From Myxococcales bacterium (GTDB lineage Bacteria > UBA10199 > 2-02-FULL-44-16 > JAAZCA01), in the NCBI GenBank assembly GCA_012513515.1, contig JAAZCA010000029.1, positions 62,001 to 126,000 on the forward strand: 64,000 nt of DNA. The letters are read 5' to 3'. A program made the position numbers and the translations under genes. The notes below the pieces were generated by a model that searched no databases, had not been told where the DNA came from, and was given only the letters and a program-made list of their open reading frames with translations. Below, piece by piece: positions 31,521-63,239 of the stretch (its first letter is position 1; each line of letters opens with the position of its first letter).

Positions 31521-33611
31521 TTATCTCACACCCTGGGACCTTGCTATTATTTCATCCGCGACGCTCTTCGGTGCCAGCTCATAGTGCGAAAACTGCATCG
31601 TGTAGGTGGCCCTTCCCTGCGTAGCGCTTCTCAAGTCGGTCGAATACCCAAACATCTTTGAAAGAGGAACCTTCGATGCTATTATCTGCGAACCGGCATG
31701 GGATTCGCTCTTAATAATCTTGCCTCTCCTAGCCGTCAGATCGCCAGTCACAGCGCCGAGGTAATCATCCGGCACGACGACTTCAACGGACATTATCGGC
31801 TCTAAGATAATCGGCGAAGCCTTACGAACAGCGTCCTTAAAGGCCATCGAAGCACAAATCTTAAAGGCCATATCCGACGAATCGACCTCATGATACGAGC
31901 CATCGAAAACGCTGACCTTCACATCGACCAGAGGATAGCCAGCGATAACTCCGCCCTGCATCGCCTCTTCAATGCCCTTCTTCACTGCCGTCATATATTC
32001 CCTGGGAATGGAACCGCCCTTGGTATCATCCGTGAAGTGAAGACCGCTGCCTCTTTCTCCAGGAGCAACGGTAAGGCATACGTGAGCATACTGTCCCCTG
32101 CCGCCTGTCTGCTTGACATACTTGTTTTCGATTTCGGCAAGCTTCGTCACGCTCTCGCGATAAGCGACCTGCGGCTTACCGACGTTGGCCTCCACACCAA
32201 ACTCGCGCACGAGCCTATCGACGATGATCTCGAGATGAAGTTCTCCCATTCCGGAGATGACGGTCTGGGCCGTTTCCTGATCCACGGAAACCTTAAAGGT
32301 AGGATCTTCATGCGCCAGCTTCTGCAGCGAAAGACCCAATCTCTCCTCATCGGCTCTGGTCTTTGGCTCGATTGCAATGGATATAACCGGTTCCGGAAAT
32401 TCCATCTTTTCGAGGACTATCGGTTTTCCTTCATTGCAAAGAGTGTCGCCAGTTCCGGTGAACTTCAAACCGACCGCAGCCAGGATATCTCCAGCCTCGG
32501 CCATACCTACCTCTTCACGCTTATTAGCGTGCATCCTGAGAACTCGGCCGATCCTTTCGCGTTTACCCTTAACGGAATTCCAGAGCGACTGTCCGCTCTC
32601 GACCCTTCCGGAATAAACCCTGAAGTAAGTGAGCTGACCGACGTAAGGATCGGTCATCACCTTGAACGCAAGGGCCGCAAAGGGCTCTTCGATCGAGGAC
32701 TTTCTGGTTTCGATCAATTCCTCTTTTGAAGGGTTGACGCCCTGAACAGGAGGAATGTCGATCGGAGCAGGCAGAAGATTTACTATGGCATCAAGAAGAA
32801 GCTGTACGCCCTTGTTCTTGAAAGCCGATCCGCAGAAAACGGGATTTACCTTCATCTGCAGCGTCGCTTTGCGCGCAGCTGAGATTATTTCCTCTTCCGA
32901 AAGCTCATGGCTTTCGAGGTACTTATGAAGAATTGCATCGTCGGCTTCGACGACAGACTCGATCATCAGTTCCCTGTATTCGGCCGCCCGCGCCTTCATC
33001 TCTTCAGGGATCTCGACAATCTCGAAAACCGATCCCTTTTCACTGTCGCTAAAGATGACCGCTTTGTTACGTACCAAATCAACTACACCTCTGTGTTCAG
33101 ATTCAGTGCCGAGAGGAAGTTGAAACGCGACGGCGTTTACCCCTAGCCTGTCCTTCATCATCTGGATGGTCCTGAAAAAATTGGCGCCGATGCGGTCCAT
33201 CTTGTTTACGAAGGCTATCATCGGCACATTATGGCGCCTGGCTTGTCTCCATACTGTTTCCGATTGGGGCTCAACGCCAGCGACTGAATCAAACAAACCT
33301 ACCGCACCATCGAGAACTCTGAGGCTTCTTTCGACCTCGGCTGTGAAGTCCACGTGACCCGGCGTATCTATTATATTGATGGTGCAATCTTTCCATTTGC
33401 AGGTAGTGGCAGCCGATGTGATCGTTATACCGCGTTCCTGCTCCTGCTCCATCCAGTCCATCACGGCAGTGCCTTCATGAACCTCACCGAGCTTATAAGT
33501 GACGCCTGTATAAAAAAGGATGCGCTCGGAAACGGTAGTTTTCCCCGCGTCGATATGCGCGACTATCCCGATATTTCTTATCTTCTCTAGATTTAAACCA
33601 GCACCTATCAT
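31521..33611 (-). CDS. fusA: Elongation factor G
   Basis: Translocase GTPase, 696 aa. G motifs AHIDAGKTT, switch [24 protein letters not shown] and NKMDRIGA are all canonical. Domain IV is marked by [16 protein letters not shown] and the C-terminus by [21 protein letters not shown] second, divergent EF-G-like protein is encoded at 49895-51964. Confidence 0.98.
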
Positions 33612-49894: not shown

Positions 49895-51964
49895 CTATTT
49901 CTTTTCCTCTTTTTCCCTCTTAGCCTCATCGATCACCTTCTGCGCGATGTGCGACGGAACAACATCATAGTGCGAGAAGGACATCGAATAAGTTCCTGCG
50001 CCGCTGGTTATCGATTTGAGACTGGCTGAATACTGATAGAGTTCGGCCATCGGCACCTTCGCCTTTATAATTCCGTTGTCCATCCCTGAAACGCGCCCGC
50101 GCCTCTGGCTGATATCGCTCGACAGATCGCCCATATTTTCCTGCGGAGCATAGACCTCAAGATCCACCACCGGTTCGAGAAGTTGCGGCGCAGAATCCTG
50201 CATAGCGAGTTTGAAGGCAAGGGAACCGGCGATCTGGAAGGACATATCCGAGGAGTCGACATCGTGATAGGAGCCGTCGAAGACGGTCACCTTCAAATCT
50301 ACCACCGGGTAACCGGCCAGCACTCCCTTCTGCATAGACTCGCGAACACCCTTCTCGATGGCTGGGATGTATTTCCCAGGTATGGAACCACCGACGATCG
50401 CATCGACGAATTCAAACCCTCCACCCGGAGGGAGGGGTTCGAGCTTAAGCCAGCAATCGCCGTATTGACCATGACCGCCGCTCTGCTTTTTGTGTTTGCC
50501 CTGCTTCTCGGACTTCTTCGTAATTTTCTCCCTGTATGGAATATGTGGCTTCTGAATCTCCACATCGACCCCGTACCTCTCTTGTAATCTTTTGATCATC
50601 ACATCGATCTGGACCTCCCCCATCCCGGTTACTATCGTCTCAGAAAATTCCTTGTCCACGTGATAGGTAAATGTGGGATCTATTTCGGTCAGCTTGGAAA
50701 GGCCGATGCCTAGCTTGTCCTGATCCTTCTTGCTTTTCGGCACAACCGCCAGAGGAACCACCGGAGTCGGGAATACCACCTGCCTCGCTGTCAGCGGATG
50801 AGCCTTCGATGTAAATGTGTCGTTGATGTGCGTATTCTTCAACTTGGCAACCGCCGCGATATCTCCGGCGCTGACAGAGGAGAGCTCTATCCTTTCTTTG
50901 CCGCGCATCGTTATAAGGTGACCCAGCCTCTCCCCGCTGGACTGGTTTACGTTAAAAACATCGTCACCGGCGTTGATCGAGCCTGAATAGACGCGGAAGA
51001 AGAATATATCTCCTATTCCTGGATCTGAAGTGGTTTTGAAGACATGAGCGACCAAGGGGCCCTTTGGATCGGCAGTGACATCCGTCTCGCTCTTGCCGTC
51101 CTTGTCCAAGACCCTGATGGCTGGCATATCCGCAGGCGAAGGAAAATATTTTATTACGGCGTTGAGAAGAGCATCGACGCCGATGTTGTTGTAGCCGCTG
51201 GCGATAAATATCGGGTTGAGGTTTCCGGAAGCGATACCCTTTGCACAACCGCGTATGATTTCCTCGTCGGACAACTCGCCCGATTCCAGATATTTTTCAA
51301 GAAGCGACTCATCGTTCTCAGCTACAGCCTCGATAAGCACTGTTCTCTTCGATTTGGCCTCCTCGACCATGTCGGCGGGGATATCGGCCTCCTTCAAAGA
51401 ACCTCCCTCATTTATATAAGCCTTCATGCCGAGCAGATCCACCACGCCCTTGAATTGCGCCTTCCCGCCGATAGCAATCTGAAACTCCGGGGCGGAAGAT
51501 TCGAGGTTCTCGCGAATCGAAGCAACCGCTGCGGCCACATCGGCATGTTCCCCGTCGGCCTTGTTGATGAGAAATGCCCGACCGCGGCCCGTCTCTTTCA
51601 TGTAATTGTAGAGTCTGATCGCAGGAATTTCCACTCCACTTGACGCATCGACAACGAACAAGGATACATCGCACACGCTCATGGCGCCGACCGCCTCGCC
51701 TATGAAATCTGAGTAGCCTGGGGTATCGAGGAGATTTATTTTGAACTGCTTCCACTCAATCGGAGTGATCTTTGAAATTATGGTCTGGTGACGTTCAACT
51801 TCTATTGGATCGTAATCTATAACAGAGTTTCCTTCCACAACCCTTCCCATCCTACCTGTAGCGCCTGATGAAAAAAGCGCCGCTTCCACGAAAGAGGTCT
51901 TGCCAACCCCCTTCGCACCGATCAACGCGATATTTCTGATGTTCGAAGTCCCGTAAGTCTTCAC
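49895..51964 (-). CDS. EF-G-like GTPase (EF-G2 group)
   Basis: 689 aa with the five-domain EF-G layout. G1 is GAKGVGKTS and G3 is DTPGYSDF. Switch I reads EVERHQTIISK where EF-G has ERGITI, and G4 is INKAD. Domain IV (GGSIPGKYIPAIEKGV) and the SFSHYDVVP C-terminus are intact. Such second EF-G proteins occur beside FusA in many bacteria; they bind ribosomes and GTP, but their role is poorly settled. GTG start with AAGGAGG 5-7 nt upstream. Lies upstream of rlmB, separate from the str cluster. Confidence 0.88.
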   Translation of the reverse strand: MKTYGTSNIRNIALIGAKGVGKTSFVEAALFSSGATGRMGRVVEGNSVIDYDPIEVERHQTIISKITPIEWKQFKINLLDTPGYSDFIGEAVGAMSVCDVSLFVVDASSGVEIPAIRLYNYMKETGRGRAFLINKADGEHADVAAAVASIRENLESSAPEFQIAIGGKAQFKGVVDLLGMKAYINEGGSLKEADIPADMVEEAKSKRTVLIEAVAENDESLLEKYLESGELSDEEIIRGCAKGIASGNLNPIFIASGYNNIGVDALLNAVIKYFPSPADMPAIRVLDKDGKSETDVTADPKGPLVAHVFKTTSDPGIGDIFFFRVYSGSINAGDDVFNVNQSSGERLGHLITMRGKERIELSSVSAGDIAAVAKLKNTHINDTFTSKAHPLTARQVVFPTPVVPLAVVPKSKKDQDKLGIGLSKLTEIDPTFTYHVDKEFSETIVTGMGEVQIDVMIKRLQERYGVDVEIQKPHIPYREKITKKSEKQGKHKKQSGGHGQYGDCWLKLEPLPPGGGFEFVDAIVGGSIPGKYIPAIEKGVRESMQKGVLAGYPVVDLKVTVFDGSYHDVDSSDMSFQIAGSLAFKLAMQDSAPQLLEPVVDLEVYAPQENMGDLSSDISQRRGRVSGMDNGIIKAKVPMAELYQYSASLKSITSGAGTYSMSFSHYDVVPSHIAQKVIDEAKREKEEKK

Positions 51965-55470: not shown

Positions 55471-56544
55471 TTATTTTTTATCCATCTCCTCAGCGATCTT
55501 TTCGACCTCCGAAACAAGAATTTTTTCTATGTCGGCCTCATCGCAGGTGGTCAAAATCTTTCCCGCCTTGAATATGACGCCCTTGCCATCCCCTCCGGCG
55601 ACGCCGATATCGGCTTCCTTTGCTTCGCCTGGGCCGTTAACCACGCAACCCATCACAGCGACCTTTATCGGCGCCCTGATACCTATGAGACGATCCTCTA
55701 TCCTGCGTGCAAGCCCCTCCAAATCTATTTGGGCGCGTCCGCAGGTGGGACAAGAAACAACTTCGGGGAAGGGCCTTTGCCTTATCCCGGCGTCTGCAAG
55801 TATCTCGTAGGCAGCGCGAACCTCCTGCACGACGTCCGCGGTGAGGGAGACCCTGAGAGTATCGCCTATTCCATCCAGGAGTAGTGTCCCTATTCCAAGC
55901 GCGGATTTAATAGCGCCGGCGAGCAGGCTGCCCGCTTCGGTGACTCCCAGATGCAGAGGATAATCCACCTTGTCGGAAAGCATCCTGTAGGATTCTATTG
56001 TATCGAGAACGTTGGAAGCCTTCACCGAAATCTTTATATCGTGAAAATCCATCCCCTCCAAAATCCTCACATGGTGAAGCGCCGACTCCACCATAGCCTC
56101 AGGAGTGGGCTTGCCGAATTTTTTCAGGAGATGTGGCTCCACCGAACCTGAGTTCACACCTATCCTGATAGGCACTCCCCTACTCTTCGCCGCCTCTATC
56201 ACCGTTCTCAACTTTTCATCGGAACCTATATTGCCTGGGTTGATGCGAACGCAATCCACACCGGAATCTATCGCCTTGATTGCGAAGTCGTGACGAAAGT
56301 GTATGTCAGCAACAAGAGGTATCGATATTCTGAACTTTATCTCTTTCAAGCTGTCGGCCGCCCCCTCGTCTGGAACAGCGACTCTCACGATTTCACACCC
56401 GGCCCTGGTAAGCCTATCTATCTGCGCCACTGTGGCATCGACATCCGATGTCCTGGTGTTGGTCATGGACTGAACTGATATCTGCGCACCGCCGCCGACC
56501 TCGACATCGCCGACCTTTATTTTTCTTGTGATACGCCTAGACAT
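55471..56544 (-). CDS. ispG: 4-hydroxy-3-methylbut-2-enyl diphosphate synthase
   Basis: Iron-sulfur enzyme of the non-mevalonate isoprenoid pathway, converting MEcPP to HMBPP. 357 aa: TIM barrel starting RRITRKIKVGDVEVGG, then a C-terminal 4Fe-4S domain with three cysteines (SCPTCGR and MGCVVNGPGEA). The ATG at 56544 is used, 10 nt after AAGGAGG. An ATG at 56553 is only 1 nt from that site. The start overlaps the metalloprotease stop by 8 bp. Confidence 0.96.
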   Translation of the reverse strand: MSRRITRKIKVGDVEVGGGAQISVQSMTNTRTSDVDATVAQIDRLTRAGCEIVRVAVPDEGAADSLKEIKFRISIPLVADIHFRHDFAIKAIDSGVDCVRINPGNIGSDEKLRTVIEAAKSRGVPIRIGVNSGSVEPHLLKKFGKPTPEAMVESALHHVRILEGMDFHDIKISVKASNVLDTIESYRMLSDKVDYPLHLGVTEAGSLLAGAIKSALGIGTLLLDGIGDTLRVSLTADVVQEVRAAYEILADAGIRQRPFPEVVSCPTCGRAQIDLEGLARRIEDRLIGIRAPIKVAVMGCVVNGPGEAKEADIGVAGGDGKGVIFKAGKILTTCDEADIEKILVSEVEKIAEEMDKK

Positions 56545-57895
56545 TCTTTTCATGCCTCCTTCTAACAAGATCCGAGGCCAGGACTGAAGTTATTATCGAG
56601 AGAAAGAGAAAAGCAGCGGTCCCTACCGCGCCGCCTGCTGTGGTGAATGAACATGAGGCCGACGATTCTGCATCACCGTTGGAGCCATCATCTTCAGAGG
56701 CGCAGGGATTTGGTGTATCGATCGTAGCGGATGCCATCTCTATGGTATCACCGCCCTTGCTGCACTTCACTGTGGAAGCACCGGAGGATGAAGTAATTAT
56801 GCCTGTCTCAAAACCTCTCGGCTTGATGATGTTGGGTTCGAAACCCGAGGCCCCTGTGTACGCGGAATTAAGAGGCTCATATGAAACCTGATAAGGGACG
56901 CCGGGAAGAATTCCATACAGGTAATATTTTGCCCCCCCTTTGCACCCGGAATGAAGAACCCCGGAAACGAACGACCTAGAATCCGTTCTTGCAATATCTT
57001 CTTCGACATCCGCACGCGACGCTATTACGTTTACGCCTTTGAGAGGCTTACCGTCGGCATCGAAAATCTCTCCGGTTATGAGGCAAAAATCGCTCTGAAA
57101 TTCTGTGCTCGGATATATCCAAGAAACCGTGACTCTGTCATCCATGCTCAGAGCTCCCTGCGTGAAAGTAAGGAGCTCCGGATACATCGTCGGTATATAC
57201 TTACCCTTCTCACCACATTCACCACCCCTCGTATAGAGAGTTCCCTCTCTACCGCACTCTTGAGCTATCGAGTCATTCACCTGGCTGTGATCAAGATTGA
57301 TCATGTGCCCTATCTCGTGGAGTATGGTCGCCTTAAAAAGTTTTTCCGCCACATCACTTTCTGGGGCGAGTTTTCCATCATCCAGCACATATCCGTTGAA
57401 GAGAGCAAAACCCTTCGTGATATAGAGTCCGGAGTAATCAGAAAGCAGCGGAGCTGATAGACCAACTACAGTCGCCCTGTTAGAAGCCCCGAGGAGCTTA
57501 GCGGTTATATCCCCATCTTCGTCGAAGATGATGGAGCTCACCCCGGAAGATGCACTGAGATATGGATGAGAATTTTGAGAAGTCACATCCGCCGGCAGAT
57601 TCCCTTCGTAGTGCGATTTGAAGGTCGAGGTTTTGACAGGCTCACCTTCGGCATTAGGTATAGTAATATCCCTCCATGTATCCAAAGCCTCATTGACCCA
57701 ATCCTTACCTGTGGAATTTTCAACGCTATTTGAAACCCGGCCAGGATCTAAATACCAATTCATGGTGTCGTTCTTCCATCTAAGAGCGACCCCGCTGTCG
57801 TTGATCACATCTACAGCAAATGGCCCTCCTGCATAGGAATGGGTTTGAAGAAAAAAGATGAAAAGGGAAAAACCCGCCGCGAGAATTTTTTTCAC
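56537..57895 (-). CDS. Secreted matrixin-like zinc metalloprotease with C-terminal anchor
   Basis: 452 aa. An N-terminal signal peptide (ILAAGFSLFIFFLQTHSYA) is followed by a metzincin catalytic domain: zinc ligands His193, His197 and His203 in HEIGHMINLDHS, with a Met-turn at PTMYPEL (Met237). Residues ~265-345 look like a carboxypeptidase-regulatory/Ig-like domain (LITGEIFDADGKPLKGVNV). A Cys/Ser-rich linker (SASCSF) then leads to a hydrophobic helix and a basic tail (DLVRRRHEKNV), the three-part form of C-terminal sorting or anchoring signals. It overlaps the upstream secreted-protein gene by 4 bp, suggesting the two work together. Substrate unknown. Confidence 0.82.
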   Translation of the reverse strand: MKKILAAGFSLFIFFLQTHSYAGGPFAVDVINDSGVALRWKNDTMNWYLDPGRVSNSVENSTGKDWVNEALDTWRDITIPNAEGEPVKTSTFKSHYEGNLPADVTSQNSHPYLSASSGVSSIIFDEDGDITAKLLGASNRATVVGLSAPLLSDYSGLYITKGFALFNGYVLDDGKLAPESDVAEKLFKATILHEIGHMINLDHSQVNDSIAQECGREGTLYTRGGECGEKGKYIPTMYPELLTFTQGALSMDDRVTVSWIYPSTEFQSDFCLITGEIFDADGKPLKGVNVIASRADVEEDIARTDSRSFVSGVLHSGCKGGAKYYLYGILPGVPYQVSYEPLNSAYTGASGFEPNIIKPRGFETGIITSSSGASTVKCSKGGDTIEMASATIDTPNPCASEDDGSNGDAESSASCSFTTAGGAVGTAAFLFLSIITSVLASDLVRRRHEKNV

Positions 57896-58628: not shown

Positions 58629-59165
58629 TTATATAGCATCCTCATCGACAGGAACCGAGGCATCCGCCGGGGGCTCCTCGCCTCTCATCAACTCGATGGT
58701 ATAGGTAGCGCAGCTCTCACCAAACTCACCCGCATCGTCGGCCTCCATAACTTCACAGCTTCCTTCGATGCCGCCTTCGACGAAGGTCAGATAGTACACC
58801 CGCTGAACGCCCATGATAACTGACATGAGAACTATCGATCTATCTTTTAGCCTGGAGGAAAAGAGACGTGAGTAACCTTCGAAGGTAGCATTCACAAACG
58901 AGCCACCCTCCTCGTCCTCTATCTTCACCGCCAGCTTGTTCTCCACGCCGGCCTCATCGGATATAGATTCACAGCTGTTGTTATCGAGAGTCATGGTGCC
59001 GACATAGTAGCCGGAGTTCGGCCCGAAGCGCTTGCCCTCACTGGGCTGACCCGGCCTGTCTATACCACGGCCAAAACCTTCGATGGCATCGGTGTCCCTA
59101 TCGAACGCCGCGCATGACGAAATGAGCAAAAGAGAAAGAATCGCCAGAAACAGCCTGAATCCCAT
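58629..59165 (-). CDS. Small lipoprotein of unknown function
   Basis: 178 aa. Lipoprotein signal with lipobox LISSC (cysteine near residue 18: ILSLLLISSCAAFDRD). The mature protein is acidic and beta-rich (SGYYVGTMTLDNNSCESISD; VYYLTFVEGGIEGSCEVMEADD) with four further cysteines and an acidic tail (DASVPVDEDAI). No known domain recognised. The frame is open far upstream, but GGGAGG 4 nt before the ATG at 59165 decides the start. A GTGTGC-ACGCC-GCACAC palindrome (59187-59203) lies just upstream and might be an operator. Confidence 0.75.
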   Translation of the reverse strand: MGFRLFLAILSLLLISSCAAFDRDTDAIEGFGRGIDRPGQPSEGKRFGPNSGYYVGTMTLDNNSCESISDEAGVENKLAVKIEDEEGGSFVNATFEGYSRLFSSRLKDRSIVLMSVIMGVQRVYYLTFVEGGIEGSCEVMEADDAGEFGESCATYTIELMRGEEPPADASVPVDEDAI

Positions 59166-59302
59166 ATACCCTCCCAGGTAACTTGAGTGTGCACGCCGCA
59201 CACTGCGATGGTTAGTGAAGTTCTCCCATATGATGTATCGTCTCTCCCCCGAGAAAGTTGCTACTTTTTTTAATACTTTTAAAGTGCTTATTTTACAAGT
59301 AG

Positions 59303-60106
59303 TTATGAGCGTAGAGAGCCTATGATAAAGCGCCCGCAGCGTTCGCACACATAAACGGAGTTGGGATTTCTCTTCATCTCGTAGGCAAGCCCGCTCGACA
59401 GCTGCATATTGCATCCGTGGCATATGCCATCGTTGGCCTCGACCAGAGCCTCGCCGTAATGGCTGATAAGCCTGTCAAACCTCGAGAGCATGCTCCCTGA
59501 GAGCTCATCCCTTGCAAGCTCTATCTTTCTCGCCAGCCCTTTTGCACCGGATGACTTTTTTGCCTCCAGGAGTTGAAGCGTAACAAGGATATCGGCCTCC
59601 CATTTGGTGGCGCGCCCTGCGAGCATATCCACCTTCACATCGGCAAAAAGCGCAGCAATCTCCTTGGCATCTTTCGCCTTCATGATGTGATCGCGGAAAT
59701 CGGGATCTGCGAGTTTGGAAACGAGTCCGGCAAAGAGCCTGTTGAAAAGACCCGGCTGTTCCGGCTGCCACAGGATCAGGACTATGATATGAACATCGCC
59801 GCGGTCAGGAGCACCAAAATCTATTCCCTGTTTATGCCTTCCAATCGCTATAACGGGCTTCGGACCGACTTCCAAACGGGCATGGGGAATGGCGATGCCA
59901 TCGCCAAGCGCTGTCACTGCAAGATCTTCCCTCTCGAGAACTCTTTTCAACGCCTCCGCCTTCTGCGGGATGAGATCCTTCCGGTAAAGGAGATCGATGA
60001 TATCCTCAATTGCCGCCTTCTTGCTTTTATTCGTCATATCTTCGATCACATGTCCGGCGTCGAGAAGTTCCCCGAGCGGCACAACTTTCACATACTCGCT
60101 GACCAT
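59303..60106 (-). CDS. PTS EIIA(fructose/mannitol-type) domain fused to a C4 zinc ribbon
   Basis: 267 aa. Residues ~8-150 are a PTS_EIIA_2 domain with the phospho-acceptor His75 in DGIAIPHARLEVG and the strand HIIVLILWQ. Residues ~165-225 are a helical, probably coiled-coil segment (LEAKKSSGAKGLARKIELAR). The end is a C4 zinc ribbon (Cys229, Cys232, Cys254, Cys257: ICHGCNMQL...CERCGRF), like the C4-type zinc-ribbon proteins of the CdsZ/DUF164 group. No EIIB or EIIC gene is near, so it probably regulates, as PtsN does, instead of taking part in sugar uptake. I know of no characterised protein with this combination. A promoter lies at 60178-60206. Confidence 0.8.
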   Translation of the reverse strand: MVSEYVKVVPLGELLDAGHVIEDMTNKSKKAAIEDIIDLLYRKDLIPQKAEALKRVLEREDLAVTALGDGIAIPHARLEVGPKPVIAIGRHKQGIDFGAPDRGDVHIIVLILWQPEQPGLFNRLFAGLVSKLADPDFRDHIMKAKDAKEIAALFADVKVDMLAGRATKWEADILVTLQLLEAKKSSGAKGLARKIELARDELSGSMLSRFDRLISHYGEALVEANDGICHGCNMQLSSGLAYEMKRNPNSVYVCERCGRFIIGSLRS

Positions 60107-60177
60107 ATATCTCTGCTCCTTTTCATGCTGATGGTTTAATGCTTTGTTGAAACAAAAACGCCAGCTAGGAAAGAAAA

Positions 60178-61517: not shown

Positions 61518-62033
61518 TCAGGATAAACGTTTGAGTATGTCAGGAATCGGTCTGAAAAATTCTACTCCACATTCCGCGTCACCGCCTTCAAGCTCTTTCA
61601 CCCACCTTGCATAAGCCTCCGCCGCATCGCTGGCCGACCCTCCGAAGGCAACGGAGAGGTGATCGCCTATTTCGACATCCACATCTGTAACGATCTTGAT
61701 TCCAAGGGCGCTGGCGTCGAGGACGCGTGCCCTCTCCCATTTCCCCGAACCCTGCGGGAGAATCCAAACCTGTGCATCGACCTGAAAACGGGGAGCGCGG
61801 CGCACGTCAGCCCTTCCCTTATACAGATTCCTATAAGAGGAATCATAACGGGCGCGCTTGCCCGGATCCTTCAAGACCTCATAGGCCTCGTTTATATCCT
61901 TGGCGCACTCCTCATCACCTCCGAGATCAGGATGCATTTTAAGGGCATACATCCAGGTCTTATACACCGCGTTGATTATTTCGAGCGGAGCATCCGGCGC
62001 AACGCCAAGCAATCTGTAATAATCTTTTTTCAT
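61518..62033 (-). CDS. J-domain protein fused to a PilZ (c-di-GMP-binding) domain
   Basis: 171 aa, cytoplasmic. Residues 4-65 are a DnaJ J-domain with the Hsp70-activating His34-Pro35-Asp36 (KMHPDLGGDEE) and DINEAYEVLKDPGKRARYD. From residue 77 a PilZ domain follows: the RxxxR switch is RRAPR (78-82), and D/NxSxxG is Asp106-Ala-Ser108-Ala-Leu-Gly111. It ends shortly after with no Gly/Phe or zinc region, so it is not a full DnaJ. The fold suggests that c-di-GMP binding controls recruitment of an Hsp70. It is convergent with the peptidase gene, with 8 bp between the stops. Confidence 0.85.
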   Translation of the reverse strand: MKKDYYRLLGVAPDAPLEIINAVYKTWMYALKMHPDLGGDEECAKDINEAYEVLKDPGKRARYDSSYRNLYKGRADVRRAPRFQVDAQVWILPQGSGKWERARVLDASALGIKIVTDVDVEIGDHLSVAFGGSASDAAEAYARWVKELEGGDAECGVEFFRPIPDILKRLS

Positions 62034-62079: not shown

Positions 62080-63060
62080 TCAAATTAAAAAATTCAGAAA
62101 ACTCTTCTTCTCTACAGGAGAGACGAGTTCACTCCAGGTCCTTCCGCCATAGCGAATTTTTATGGGAACCTCCGAGCCTCCGTGGTCAGCGTAGGTCGCG
62201 CATATGGACGCCACAAGGTTGACATCCCTTATGGACTTCGGAGAGAGCACTATCGCAGCGGGGCCAGGGAGAACATCGGAGATTAAAAGCGCCCCCAGAG
62301 ATTCGGGAAGCGCCTCGATCTTCTGATTATTTTTTTCATTCCTTCCGACGATAGCCTTTACCCCGTTCTCGAAGCGAAAAAACCTTCCGAGTTTCAGCAG
62401 CTCCACGTCATCGCACCCTGCTTCCGGCAAATCATGAAGTAAAACCTCGAGCCTCTTCGAAAAAGCCGGATCCGTAAGAAGGCAGCCCCCCGCAGGCTGA
62501 ATGTAATGAACAATTCCATATTTCTTCGCGAGTTCCATCTGAGGCTTTCGCGAACGCCCGCTTATCGCACCAAGGCGCGATCTGTCGATCAACCCCTCCC
62601 TCTCCGGTTTCGTGGAATCGAGGAGCCTCGCTGATAGAGGCCTAAGAAGTATTTCGGAGCAGCCGGAATTTTTCGCCACCGTATCGAGAGACCGCCTATT
62701 CTGGGACATCGGCCTTTCGTTTAAAACCTCGCCGGTCGCAACTATATCGAAGCCCTCGGTTACCGCTATCTCCCCCGCCTTGCGAACCATCATGGCATGG
62801 CAGTCTATGCAGGGATTCATATTCTTGCCGCGGCCATGTGGAGGATTTTTGACCATCGCAAGATGCTCATCGGAAATATCCACGATCCTTATGGGAATTT
62901 TCATCTCTTTGGCTGCATCCTCGGCATTTTCAGATCCAAAAAAGGGGGTGGTGAAGGTAAGTCCGACCACCTCGATCCCCTGTTCCTCGAGCATACGTAC
63001 TGCCAAAAGGCTGTCTAAGCCGCCGGAAAGAAGTGAAAGCGCCCTTATTTTTTTACCCAC
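62080..63060 (-). CDS. PP-loop ATPase, predicted tRNA thiolation enzyme (MnmA/ThiI-like)
   Basis: 326 aa. The ATP-binding PP-loop is Ser12-Gly-Gly-Leu-Asp-Ser17. A CxxC pair (Cys84, Cys87 in NPCIDCHAMM) and a third cysteine (PAGGCLLTDP) resemble the sulfur-relay cysteines of MnmA. The C-terminal third (GRFFRFENGVKAIVGRNEKNNQKI) recalls DUF814/NFACT-R-type domains. MnmA itself has a different RNA-binding end, so this is a separate thiouridylase-like group; the substrate is inferred. The start is a GTG at 63060 with GGGAG 7 nt upstream. The frame is open to 63219 but without family sequence. Confidence 0.75.
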   Translation of the reverse strand: MGKKIRALSLLSGGLDSLLAVRMLEEQGIEVVGLTFTTPFFGSENAEDAAKEMKIPIRIVDISDEHLAMVKNPPHGRGKNMNPCIDCHAMMVRKAGEIAVTEGFDIVATGEVLNERPMSQNRRSLDTVAKNSGCSEILLRPLSARLLDSTKPEREGLIDRSRLGAISGRSRKPQMELAKKYGIVHYIQPAGGCLLTDPAFSKRLEVLLHDLPEAGCDDVELLKLGRFFRFENGVKAIVGRNEKNNQKIEALPESLGALLISDVLPGPAAIVLSPKSIRDVNLVASICATYADHGGSEVPIKIRYGGRTWSELVSPVEKKSFLNFLI

Positions 63061-63210
63061 GCGATGTCTCCCTATTCCTGTTCGCCTGTAGCTATTCAAT
63101 GGTGAGGCATAATTTAAGAGAGAGACAAAGGCAATAGAAAGGGTTGAAACTATTGATACAAAATAGAACCGATAATCGTCATTTTTCACATTTTGTAGAT
63201 AAAGCCGCGA

Positions 63211-63239
63211 TTGACGCAAGCGTAAATCTGCTCTAGATA
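63211..63239 (+). promoter_or_regulatory. Candidate promoter giving a leaderless message
   Basis: TTGACG (63211-63216), 17 nt, TAGATA (63234-63239). The start codon of the response regulator begins 7 nt later, so transcription would start at or next to the ATG. No Shine-Dalgarno is present, which agrees. Confidence 0.55.

Follow-up and report, generated by a model that had tools for sequence, protein, structure and literature searches.

The closest described systems to the gene analyzed here belong to the PTS and to the CdsZ/FlgZ (DUF164) family. EIIANtr (PtsN) acts through surface contacts with partner proteins, and regulators of the MtlR, LicR and BglG type carry built-in EII domains, with an EIIA-type domain controlling the output domain of the same chain. 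Mutation of PtsN affects sigma54-dependent nifH transcription (PMC13104625). DUF164 proteins, characterized by the motif Y/F-X18-23-CXXC-X18-26-CXXC, co-occur with RpoN outside the Actinobacteria; in the 2011 survey one protein per genome was the rule, and the sole named fusion was to NIF3 (PMC3372290). FlgZ shields RpoN from turnover and requires its ribbon Cys to do so, since FlgZ C202S, which is stably made, gives no protection; FliH and flaA mRNA are further binding partners of FlgZ (PMC3372290). CT398 binds RpoN, FliH and CdsL, contacting RpoN via the coiled coil alone and FliH/CdsL via coiled coil and ribbon together (PMC5947703), and a Waddlia homologue has been reported at many chromosomal sites and to pull down RpoD (PMC6426960). 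Both the effect of EIIANtr on sigma54-dependent transcription and the role of the DUF164/CdsZ ribbon outside Helicobacter and Chlamydia are incompletely understood.

The window (the whole stretch of DNA analyzed, 64,000 nucleotides) encodes on its minus strand, at 59303..60106, a protein of 267 residues in which an EIIA domain is joined to a zinc ribbon. The open reading frame (267 codons plus stop) has an ATG start and a Shine-Dalgarno sequence, AAGGAG, at 60116..60121 (-), and comprises a PTS_EIIA_2 domain (residues 14-155; 59642..60067), a linker (residues 156-192; 59531..59641) and a complete CdsZ/FlgZ-type domain of a helix and a C4 ribbon (residues 193-262; 59321..59530), all on the minus strand. 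Orthologues with uninterrupted frames are present in three further genera of the family (73, 65 and 63% identity), and the architecture is identical, and His75 and Cys229, 232, 254 and 257 are invariant, across the four genera, which come from separate assemblies. These intact orthologues rule out a frameshift or an assembly join of two genes, the origin that the sequence-only reading had named as fatal to its proposal. The joint between EIIA and ribbon is real and conserved. Values of pN/pS between 0.11 and 0.34 over EIIA, linker and ribbon (0.11-0.33 for the linker) indicate purifying selection in all three parts, with pN/pS alone quoted and synonymous sites close to saturation. The ribbon is the best conserved part among the fusions (mean identity 0.76, compared with 0.68 for the linker and 0.64 for EIIA). 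By membership, the product is an EIIA_2 domain protein that falls outside the PtsN equivalogs and is less than a full CdsZ.

The PF00359 match (residues 14-155; 93.8 bits against a Pfam cut-off of 27, E = 1.2e-26) contains the phospho-acceptor His75 (59882-59884, minus strand) in the context GDGIAIPHARL, alongside Arg59 and Arg77. Structure prediction, as the sequence-only reading had advised, gave a PtsN fold for this part: in an AlphaFold2 model of the full-length fusion (three sequences, mean pLDDT 62.8), residues 9-160 match the PtsN structures 3urr, 4gqx, 1a6j and 2a0j at Z = 18.3-18.9, with the best superposition between residues 13-160 and 3urr_B (Z = 18.9, rmsd 2.2, 144 aligned). Like EIIANtr/PtsN (PF00359), the fusion has an EIIA_2 fold and no cognate EIIC; His75 and Arg59 are equivalent to His73 and Arg57 of E. 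coli PtsN, and Arg77 to Arg69 of the N. meningitidis protein. The earlier label "PtsN-like" is therefore apt for the fold but goes too far for family membership, as the fusion fails the NCBIfam PtsN equivalog model TIGR01419 (61.4 bits against a cut-off of 138.7) and lies outside the rpoN operon, which sits on another contig (C4) and contains a separate, canonical ptsN. In comparison with PtsN, the fusion also adds the C-terminal ribbon domain and carries Phe121 in place of His120.

Arg59 and His75 are present in all 43 aligned EIIA_2 domains of the phylum (4 fusions and 39 comparison sequences). The profile match and the intact phospho-His and Arg bear out the EIIA_2 domain that the earlier reading placed around His75. 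The second active-site His (His120 in E. coli PtsN, His113 in N. meningitidis, His111 in IIAMtl) is His in 37 of the 39 other EIIA_2 domains but Phe121 in all four fusions. The second His of IIAMtl has been proposed to be needed in transfer to IIB, whereas that of PtsN faces away from the active site and was judged unlikely to be involved in transfer, with Arg69 near the active site instead (PMC1201152). As Arg77 of the fusion occupies the place of Arg69, Phe121 and Arg77 would fit a terminal acceptor that makes no donation to EIIB, and Phe121 could also mean altered phosphorylation. His91 is invariant in the fusions and may be a stand-in for the lost His. The possibility that the EIIA part is a degenerate, non-phosphorylated binding module with no role in reading the PTS draws on the change to Phe in all four proteins, on the variable Ser of the GST motif and on scores below the PtsN and fruA cut-offs; it is nevertheless very unlikely, given the invariance of His75, Arg59 and the IPH motif and the outward orientation of the equivalent second His in PtsN structures (PMC1201152).

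The fusion further differs from sugar-PTS IIA domains of the mannitol/fructose type in lacking the second His, and its genomes lack a PF02378 EIIC. It resembles the MtlR/LicR/BglG regulators in placing an EIIA-type domain and an output in one chain, but the output is a zinc ribbon; no PRD or HTH was found in the fusion at Pfam E values up to 10, apart from one winged-helix match below threshold (Stork_head, E = 0.27, residues 7-41).

A search for ptsI and ptsH elsewhere in the genome, which had been proposed as a check, located EI, HPr and HprK in a single stretch that runs rpoN-hpf-ptsN-hprK-EIIAMan-ptsH-ptsI and then metK (L063:8312-14124, minus strand; contig C4 of genome G000). The same PTS gene order is present in genome G003. 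EI (site GGETSHTAI) and HPr (site GLHARAA) form the only EI/HPr pair in the genome. No EIIB or EIIC is seen near the fusion gene, as already stated in the sequence-only reading, and none of the four family genomes has a PTS_EIIC (PF02378); on this basis the PTS looks regulatory, and His75 looks like a terminal acceptor. The same genome encodes a second EIIA fusion, a 232-residue protein with an HTH_17 DNA-binding domain followed by EIIA_2 (L066:10167-10868, minus strand; contig C29 of G000, near 158-159 kb), whose gene adjoins genes resembling NADH dehydrogenase/antiporter subunits. EIIA-plus-output is thus used more than once in this genome.

The four cysteines named in the sequence-only reading (229, 232, 254 and 257) are in place, and its assignment of the ribbon to the CdsZ/DUF164 type is confirmed by three lines of evidence. 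PF02591 (Zn_ribbon_9, formerly DUF164) matches residues 229-261 above its Pfam cut-off (30.7 against 29.1 bits, E = 3.4e-7); the helix and ribbon of CdsZ proteins can be aligned with the whole of residues 193-262, and the spacing F210-X18-CXXC-X21-CXXC lies within the published motif. A profile of three fusion C-termini searched against the PDB gave CT398 as the best match (E = 0.006). Residues 180-267 were modeled alone (mean pLDDT 76.3), since the match list of the full-length protein is filled by the EIIA domain, and a blind Foldseek search with this model returned 3na7 (HP0958), 4ilo (CT398), 5y06 and 5y05 (MSMEG_4306) as its top four hits (prob 0.66-0.99), followed by unrelated chains at prob 0.08 or less; the VIA-align score of the ribbon model was modest (Z = 5.0). 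The fusion therefore shares the zinc-ribbon domain and motif spacing of CdsZ/FlgZ proteins such as CT398 (4ilo), HP0958 (3na7) and MSMEG_4306 (5y05), but their N-terminal coiled-coil hairpin is replaced by EIIA: CT398_CC (PF24481) has no match in the fusion at E values up to 10 and is present in the CdsZ paralogue. The earlier "helical linker" is only partly helical in the AlphaFold2 model, which has low confidence there, and is shorter than described, spanning only residues ~156-192 as the CdsZ alignment begins at ~193; because the linker model is of low confidence, no defined coupling path is visible.

Small zinc ribbons often stabilize or dimerize proteins. Together with the mode of action of EIIANtr through surface contacts, this favors a reading in which the ribbon is a structural or oligomerization tail and the protein is a second soluble PtsN-like regulator working through its EIIA surface. 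We consider it quite improbable, because the ribbon is better conserved than EIIA, beyond the need of a passive tail.

Among 46 genomes of the phylum, the fusion is encoded in the four members of one family only, a small and little-studied group, the remainder matching either the EIIA or the ribbon part. Two of the fusion genomes are JABGOS010000100 (Deltaproteobacteria bacterium co234_bin13) and JAJZQH010000001 (bacterium SKS1.bin41). The same four are the only genomes with two Zn_ribbon_9 proteins above cut-off; nearly all others have one, which measures ~215-340 residues in complete frames, and five lack it. An ordinary CdsZ is retained beside the fusion in all four (one counterpart is truncated by a contig end), and that of G000 consists of a CT398_CC coiled coil and a ribbon. 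In contrast to the published one-per-genome rule (PMC3372290), the fusion genomes thus carry a second DUF164 protein. A scan of 84,980 species with peptide patterns that are particular to this lineage of fusions places close relatives, as distinct from independent fusions that may exist elsewhere, in one family only. No fusion relatives were found in viral contigs or plasmids, and a literature search for the EIIA-ribbon domain pair found no report. Wolinella WS2117 (PMC3372290) likewise joins a DUF164 ribbon to another domain and is a possible gene-fusion clue, but its partner is NIF3 and not EIIA. The EIIA-plus-output architecture is new and, as far as tested, confined to one family. Recent duplication of the family's CdsZ as the source of the ribbon is not supported, as the fusion ribbons group in a clade of their own (support 1.0, in a tree of ~70 columns) that is not nested with the family CdsZ ribbons. 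Where CdsZ has PPQ, the fusion ribbon reads SSG or SSS.

A regulatory PTS device is the natural reading of a protein whose EIIA domain keeps its phospho-His and Arg and whose ribbon is genuine, in a genome with a phosphate source and no EIIC. The earlier proposal of a regulator that reads PTS flow with a built-in output gains from the intact domains, the presence of EI, HPr and HprK and the lack of EIIC, and judged from sequence the protein probably makes a regulatory signal out of the flow of PTS phosphate. The best explanation, which in our estimate has an even chance of being right, is a switch set by PTS phosphorylation, with binding of the CdsZ type as its output. The single EI/HPr pair would supply HPr~P, which would phosphorylate His75; the phosphate would stay off sugar, there being no EIIC in the genome to pass it on, and the state of His75 would mirror the cell's PEP/pyruvate and HPr-Ser-P status. 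This state would alter the exposed face of EIIA, the helical linker or both, and thereby change how the zinc-ribbon domain engages a protein or nucleic acid. The sequences show the two domains and their conservation, the phosphate supply and the lack of PTS_EIIC; we infer the phosphorylation of His75, its coupling to the ribbon and the identity of the partner. From the relatives of the ribbon, the likeliest partners would be complexes of RNA polymerase and sigma factors, secretion ATPase regulators of the FliH/CdsL type, or RNA. Weighing against the switch, the Phe in place of the second active-site His could alter the phosphoryl chemistry, and no gene beside the fusion points to a target. In terms of mechanism, a PTS-gated adaptor is plausible.

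Three points go beyond the sequence-only reading: the family keeps a separate CdsZ, the fusions have lost the second active-site His, and sigma54 links have been published for both parent families. Each of the four fusion genomes has one rpoN and 7-12 PF00158 matches, mostly strong, and all four encode a FlhB/YscU-family export protein; with rpoN, sigma54 activators and the export protein in all four, any such partner could exist. The FlhB/YscU-family gene at L113:12715-13806 (-) looks isolated, no other export gene being recognized in the surrounding 19 kb (with Pfam run on the FlhB/YscU-family gene only).

A link to sigma54 or RNA polymerase is attractive and unproven. One version has the sigma54 holoenzyme as the target, in which RpoN or RNA polymerase would be the docking site of the ribbon and phosphorylation of EIIA would tune how stable or available RpoN is, so that the fusion would unite two activities that are separate elsewhere. 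The protection of RpoN by FlgZ but not by C202S and the DUF164-RpoN co-occurrence (PMC3372290), the altered nifH transcription in the PtsN mutant (PMC13104625) and the rpoN and PF00158 complement of the fusion genomes all argue for it. Even so, we rate it as unlikely: CT398 reportedly uses only its coiled coil to bind RpoN (PMC5947703), and as the fusion has no coiled coil direct contact with RpoN is not the default; the ordinary CdsZ is still present and could fill the role at RpoN; in many species the DUF164 gene is found alongside rpoD and dnaG instead; and the ribbon sequence has diverged at the PPQ position. In a more specific form that we would call decidedly doubtful, the fusion is a one-piece link from the nitrogen-type PTS to the sigma54/RNA-polymerase (or secretion) machinery, in which the His75 phosphate would directly govern how a CdsZ-type ribbon acts on RpoN. 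The fusion would then reveal a link between PtsN and CdsZ that may run through separate proteins in other bacteria.

The retention of CdsZ in every fusion genome and of the export protein in all four also fits a protein that competes with, or modulates, the resident CdsZ: its ribbon would bind a CdsZ partner (for example a secretion ATPase regulator of the FliH/CdsL type) and compete for it according to PTS state, and the involvement of both coiled coil and ribbon in the CT398-FliH/CdsL interaction (PMC5947703) points the same way. This is similarly doubtful, since with the fusion ribbons in their own clade and their surface motifs changed a partner shared with CdsZ is not assured, and no FliH/CdsL is seen in the fusion neighborhood. 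The conserved fusion is a gene-fusion clue that the two incompletely understood activities may act in one pathway, and provides a single protein for testing phosphorylation and ribbon binding together; if the link is coincidental, a new EIIA-plus-output architecture remains, in one family as far as tested.

The fusion gene lies between genes for small secreted proteins or lipoproteins, and further on are genes for an M10-like protease, ispG, proS (named by sequence, not profile) and an OMP-decarboxylase gene, an arrangement conserved in the four genera. The conserved neighborhood points to no partner. The downstream lipoprotein-like gene (58629..59168, minus strand) neighbors the fusion in each of the four family genomes and is preceded by a promoter-like element, GCAACTTT-N11-GACGATAC, at 59235..59261 (-) (one match against 0.07 expected), which recurs at the same place in three relatives. 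Across the four genomes the element takes the form GCAACTTT-N11-G(A/C)CGATAC, with fixed spacing, before lipoprotein-like genes near the fusion; the copies in relatives are at L069 10800 (+), L070 2964 (+) and 1830 (-), and L071 9439 (-), 10468 (-) and 10522 (+), and in G003 one element lies ~80 bp before the fusion itself. No sigma54 promoter consensus was matched upstream of the fusion in the four genomes, and Rfam contains no known RNA element near the gene.

The promoter of sigma28 (FliA) has the form TAAAGTTT-N11-GCCGATAA, which the GCAACTTT-N11-G(A/C)CGATAC element resembles. Looser copies of the element lie 25-60 bp before a few genes elsewhere, and the element was not found tied to flagellar genes. 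The M10/matrixin-like secreted metalloprotease candidate (56537-57895, minus strand; sub-threshold E = 1.4e-4) adjoins ispG in the four genera. Elsewhere in the window, all on the minus strand, are two divergent elongation factor G genes (31521-33611 and 49895-51964), a 171-residue fusion of DnaJ to the c-di-GMP-binding domain PilZ (61518-62033) with a likely orthologue in G001, and a gene joining a HUP domain of the ThiI/tRNA-methyltransferase type to an NFACT-R_2 RNA-binding domain (62080-63219).
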